From: Bacteroidota bacterium
Lineage (GTDB): Bacteria > Bacteroidota > Ignavibacteria > Ignavibacteriales > Ignavibacteriaceae
Assembly: GCA_021813585.1 (NCBI GenBank)
Contig: JAKAJV010000048.1
Span: forward strand, 1 to 64,000
Length of the DNA: 64,000 bases
Direction: 5' to 3'
Below, one piece after another: positions 37,608-37,738 of this stretch. Under the pieces are notes generated by a model. That model was given only the letters and a program-made list of their open reading frames with translations. It had not been told where the DNA came from and made no database searches. Position 1 is the stretch's first letter; each line of letters begins with the position of its first letter. A program made the position numbers and the translations under genes.

Positions 37608-37738
37608 ACACCTTACGCAAACATTAATCATTGGAGTACTGGAATGTTGGAATAATGTCCGAAGGACTCCTTTGGAGGAGTAAATTGGTCAATTCCATTA
37701 CTCCGACACTCCATTACTCCAGGGGTTGCGTAAGGTGT
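37608..37738. mobile_element. Miniature palindromic element with perfect 13-bp terminal inverted repeat
   Basis: ACACCTTACGCAA (37608-37620) / TTGCGTAAGGTGT (37726-37738); interior built from GGAGTA..TACTCC-type repeats around a GGTC centre. Confidence 0.6.

Follow-up and report, generated by a model that had tools for sequence, protein, structure and literature searches.

Prokaryotic miniature inverted-repeat transposable elements (MITEs), such as MITEAba12 and the archaeal MITEs of PMC3852290, are short, bounded by terminal inverted repeats (TIRs) and flanked by target duplications, and they need a transposase in trans; their similarity to the parent insertion sequence (IS) is often confined to the ends (PMC3852290). 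ISAba11, the namesake of one group of insertion sequences, has been assigned to the IS701 family (PMC7326120, PMC8472584). A different class of dispersed hairpins, the repetitive extragenic palindromic (REP) sequences and REPINs, is mobilised by RAYT transposases; REPs are defined as palindromes of 20-40 bp that carry GTAG or CGTC tags (PMC3733652). Here we describe a hairpin element at positions 37607-37739 of a 64,000-nt stretch of DNA from an Ignavibacteriaceae bacterium (contig JAKAJV010000048.1; the whole stretch is called the window). We put the probability at about 0.9 that it is a MITE, that is, a non-autonomous, non-coding DNA transposon driven by a transposase of the ISAba11 group (IS701 family). 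Genomes are given G-codes, G000 being the element's own genome (4.54 Mb, 142 contigs), and fetched loci around elements are given L-codes.

The terminal inverted repeat is perfect over 13 bp (37608-37620 and 37726-37738), as the original prediction had read it, and an 8-bp duplication, TTAATTTA, abuts the element on both sides. Because this duplication fixes the limits, the element measures 133 bp; the 131 bp first proposed run correctly from TIR to TIR and are one base too short on each side. The locus is built as follows, features without an assigned strand being so marked.

37599..37606, + strand, left target-site duplication TTAATTTA, present as a single TTAATTTA at the matching place in congener G004
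37607..37739, no strand, MITE copy 1, C+ACACCTTACGCAA ... TTGCGTAAGGTGT+C, 133 bp, the whole element forming one long hairpin
37608..37620, + strand, left TIR ACACCTTACGCAA; the family end consensus is [CG]TCACCTTACGCA
37621..37725, no strand, hairpin core of GGAGTA/GGAATA words, with related bare 8-bp arrays elsewhere in the window
37726..37738, - strand, right TIR TTGCGTAAGGTGT
37740..37747, + strand, right target-site duplication TTAATTTA

The core is the long imperfect hairpin of GGAGTA and TACTCC words that had been predicted, and the RNA fold of the element reached -58.8 kcal/mol against -30.3 +/- 3.8 for shuffled sequences (z = -7.55; 0 of 200 shuffles folded as well). No open reading frame (ORF) of at least 80 aa overlaps the element, consistent with the earlier view that it encodes nothing plausible, and a coding function was dropped for want of an ORF. 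An integron-like attC site was also dropped, because the insertion leaves a duplication. Literature on the end sequences gave chance matches only, and for GTCATTCTGAGC no relevant paper.

The original prediction took the element for a multi-copy, TIR-bounded and probably mobile unit, and its own genome bears this out: blastn found 40 matches in G000, with about 10 near-full copies of the core and many partial ones. The 12-bp end CACCTTACGCAA, allowing at most one mismatch, matched 62 times in G000 and its reversed control 10 times; together with the 40 matches, this argues that the element is not a chance arrangement. The three related copies predicted in the window are real, each with its own duplication (TTAATTTA, TAATTAA and TTAATTA). 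The GGTC centre noted in all three does not define the family, in which other members differ widely in their cores.

The original prediction had called for target-site duplications and empty sites to be looked for, and both were found. The element lies between a metF-like gene (36561-37529, - strand) and an acylase-like gene (37836-40328, - strand), and this spacer is conserved in congeners G002, G004, G007 and G012, all four of which lack the element. In G004 it reads ACATTAATTTATTT, with one copy of the target TTAATTTA; the spacer has diverged too much among the congeners for the claim to be exact to the base in each of them. The element is an insertion with an empty orthologous site.

To define the ends and the target, we scanned all fetched loci for end pairs, using the reversed end as a control. 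This gave 79 elements with two 13-bp ends and an exact 7-bp repeat, against 0 for the control. Among 135 end pairs, the exact repeat was 7 bp long in 70 and 8 bp in 11, and none was found at 5, 9 or 10 bp. The target consensus from the 79 exact duplications is TTANTAA. Non-complementary bases at the two ends of the 7-mer are nonetheless repeated in 10 of the 79, so that the duplication length is truly 7 and no artefact of a palindromic target. The ends follow the consensus [CG]TCACCTTACGCA and are nearly invariant from position 7 onward, an invariance that is partly by construction, as the scan tolerated few mismatches. ISfinder lists target repeats of 5 bp (ISAba11) and 4 bp (classical IS701); the figure of 5 would describe the same site if one base pair of the palindromic target were assigned to the end. 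Insertions were mostly intergenic: a restored ORF of at least 150 aa was hit in 5 of 101 tested cases, compared with 79% of random points, and target and selection may both contribute. At L036 (1499-1856), a tandem insertion into a duplicated target is seen: three copies of TAAATAA lie between two elements that differ in end type.

Autonomous elements with these ends were found in other genomes. G026, of the same order and another family, carries an IS that starts CTCACCTTACGCA, in at least 12 copies; it is about 1.2 kb long in the sole copy assembled through, most others ending at contig ends. Its transposase scored 325 bits against the IS701-family model NF049921 of NCBIfam (cut-off 250), and also matched the Pfam domains DDE_Tnp_1 and DDE_5. 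Identical ends flank transposases of 44% identity in Legionella (L181) and of 47% identity in Piscirickettsia (L373), the latter with the duplication TTCATAA. Homologues of 44-51% identity occur in Legionella, Piscirickettsia, Acinetobacter, Polaromonas, Thiothrix and cyanobacteria, with ends of the forms CTCACCTTACGCA, CTGACCTTACGCA and CTGATGTTACGCA; in Acinetobacter and Polaromonas the ends are CTGATGTTACGCA / CTGACCTTACGCA and the duplications 7 bp long, and an exact 7-bp repeat of the target flanks 4 of the 7 plasmid copies read. The alignment conserves D-D and KRW..E..HK..K. In the window's genus, homologues occur in G003 (intact, 62-63%, with CTGAAGTTACGCA ends) and in G012 (broken, terminating in a CTCACC-type end).

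The closest annotated homologue of the G026 transposase, at 51% identity, is a "group ISAba11 transposase", and homologues annotated "group ISAba11" or "IS701" carry ends finishing TTACGCA and an AT-rich 7-bp target repeat. The original prediction had placed the element outside described IS and MITE kinds. This no longer holds: its ends and AT-rich target match those of IS701-family insertion sequences, whose transposase lies above the NF049921 cut-off. The window element differs from an autonomous member of that group in being 133 bp long and non-coding, with no ORF for a transposase of its own. It has the following features of a MITE, all of them directly observed: it is short (below about 600 bp) and non-coding, with TIRs, a target duplication, dispersed copies, an empty orthologous site, and ends in common with the transposase-bearing ISs of G026, L181 and L373.

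Several points weigh against this assignment. Protein and family-model searches of G000 detected no ISAba11-type transposase, even though completeness is scored at 99.95%, and a contig-end fragment beside an orphan end (C136) in G000 encodes nothing recognisable. The link between MITE and transposase is suggested by common ends and target, and the likeness to ISAba11 is drawn from homologues annotated "group ISAba11" or "IS701". In the exact-pattern scan described below, moreover, the ends match by construction. Being split into 142 contigs, the assembly could lack a collapsed repeat or a plasmid. Since no such transposase was found in G000, the element is either mobilised in trans there or a relic.

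Most likely, a DDE transposase of the ISAba11 group recognises the 13-bp ends in trans, and insertion at AT-rich TTA-N(1-2)-TAA sites duplicates 7 bp, sometimes 8. The hairpin core might fold out and so hold the two ends together; alternatively, it may simply be tolerated. The core would be replaceable filler, since the same ends are found around many unrelated hairpins and a single hairpin can have several end variants.

Unlike in described prokaryotic MITEs, one end sequence here encloses at least 38 cores unrelated by BLAST, mostly hairpins, across many phyla. A set of 76 cores fell into 38-41 families unconnected by BLAST. Fold z was below -3 in 83% of cores compared with 1.3% of neighbouring control segments (medians -5.05 and -0.37). 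Conversely, the core TCATACCCGCGAAAGCGGGTATCC... has CTCACC, CTCATG and CTCAAG ends and hybrids of these in G000, CTCAAG ends in G008 and CTGAAG ends in G001, and is bare or half-bounded in other congeners.

These observations bear on the alternative that the hairpin cores are themselves the mobile units and the ISAba11-type ends secondary, with hairpins captured between ends, or bare hairpins left as remnants of MITEs that lost their ends. We regard this as possible, if clearly the less likely reading. Consistent with it, GTCATTGCGAGG..GCAATC and GGAGTA hairpins also occur without any ends, and the ATTCCC hairpin is bare or half-bounded in several congeners and has CTGAAG-, CTCAAG-, CTCATG- or CTCACC-type ends in others. 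Counts of bounded versus bare hairpins carry little weight, given that ends by our criterion occur at 24% of random places and that loci were picked for having ends. On the other hand, the CTTCTCTTGCCAAGAG core was found in G000 only in end-bearing copies or fragments of them, and bounded copies are flanked by precise duplications that lie immediately beyond the 13-bp ends. It was therefore by their ends that these copies last moved.

Under our preferred reading as an ISAba11-type MITE, cores could still be exchanged, and several enclosed cores presumably resemble hairpin repeats known from other genomes. We tentatively suggest, while thinking it rather improbable, that many widespread interspersed bacterial hairpins, of the types GTCATTCTGAGCG, GTCATTGCGAGG, CACAGAG, CCACGAAGAC, CGCAGATT and ATTCCC-N-GGGAAT, have spread at least in part as exchangeable cores of such MITEs. 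One hairpin would be swapped for another between the same two ends, for example by template switching in cruciforms. Core gain is presumed, but core loss was seen directly: a 43-bp element at L028 (~1471-1515) has lost nearly all of its core, the hairpin seemingly having been deleted between short repeats, and at L075 (~2514-2536) a 22-bp end-to-end fusion is left. Products of this sort are what a deletion spanning a hairpin would be expected to leave.

A functional RNA or terminator hairpin under selection at the metF / acylase locus is very unlikely. The strong fold, the intergenic position and the rarity of insertions in restored ORFs (5/101 versus 79%) would suit it, but promoter or terminator signals inside the element were none above chance, and the same spacer in four congeners does without it. 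Rfam families were absent from the window and from the elements at ten element loci, and an RNA-gene identity was dropped accordingly. Least credible of all is an origin as a REP/REPIN-type palindrome dispersed by a RAYT, an HUH tyrosine transposase whose insertions leave no target duplication: the element shares its long hairpin, intergenic position and high copy number with REPs (PMC3116915, PMC3733652), but its clean 7-8-bp target duplications, for which we rejected this origin, and its inverted ends in common with DDE insertion sequences set it apart.

The ends reach far beyond the genus. Scanning genome contigs for exact matches to TAA[CG]TCACCTTACGCA returned at least 114 stretches, many with short duplicating pairs. 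Among the matches listed were Chloroflexota, Ignavibacteria, Bacteroidetes, Legionella, Rickettsia and Chlamydiae, as well as Leptospiraceae, Treponema, Pseudanabaena, Thiomargarita and others; many of these matches come from metagenome bins, so single occurrences are possibly misbinned. As a MITE the element is nothing out of the ordinary, and its driver family is well supported; what is unusual is that hairpin cores are interchangeable over so wide a bacterial range. A set of seemingly orphan hairpin repeats from many bacterial genomes can now be assigned a transposase, a target rule and boundaries.

A sister MITE of 143 bp with an ATTCCC/GGGAAT-type core has multiplied in G000, with 99 core matches compared with 0-5 in twelve congeners. 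Among 29 copies read, 11 share one sequence and another 15 deviate from it by a single base. Many copies have exact 7-bp duplications, and many contigs of the assembly break at this element. This expansion is recent. Its driver is either gone from the genome, concealed by the fragmentation of the assembly, or carried on a replicon that was not assembled. About 100 near-identical copies without a visible transposase make a testable system, in which the modularity of ends and cores can be traced on trees.

Further elements of this kind lie in the window.

1..114, - strand, truncated 143-bp sister MITE with an ATTCCC...GGGAAT core and the end CTCATGTTACGCA, then TTATTAA; cut by the contig start
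49985..50097, no strand, MITE copy 2, 113 bp, with the duplication TAATTAA on both sides
54934..55037, no strand, MITE copy 3, 104 bp, with the duplication TTAATTA on both sides

Upstream of copy 2, a histidine-kinase-like ORF (48846-49988) terminates at a TGA that falls inside the left end of the copy, so that the insertion supplies the end of this gene. Two stretches lack transposon ends. At 55315-55397 there is a bare tandem array of the 8-bp words GGAGTAAT / GGAGTAGT, the same words from which the core of the 133-bp element is built. At 62328-62416, a hairpin CTTACTCTTACTC... without ISAba11-type ends resembles a core that bears such ends elsewhere in the genome (L070).
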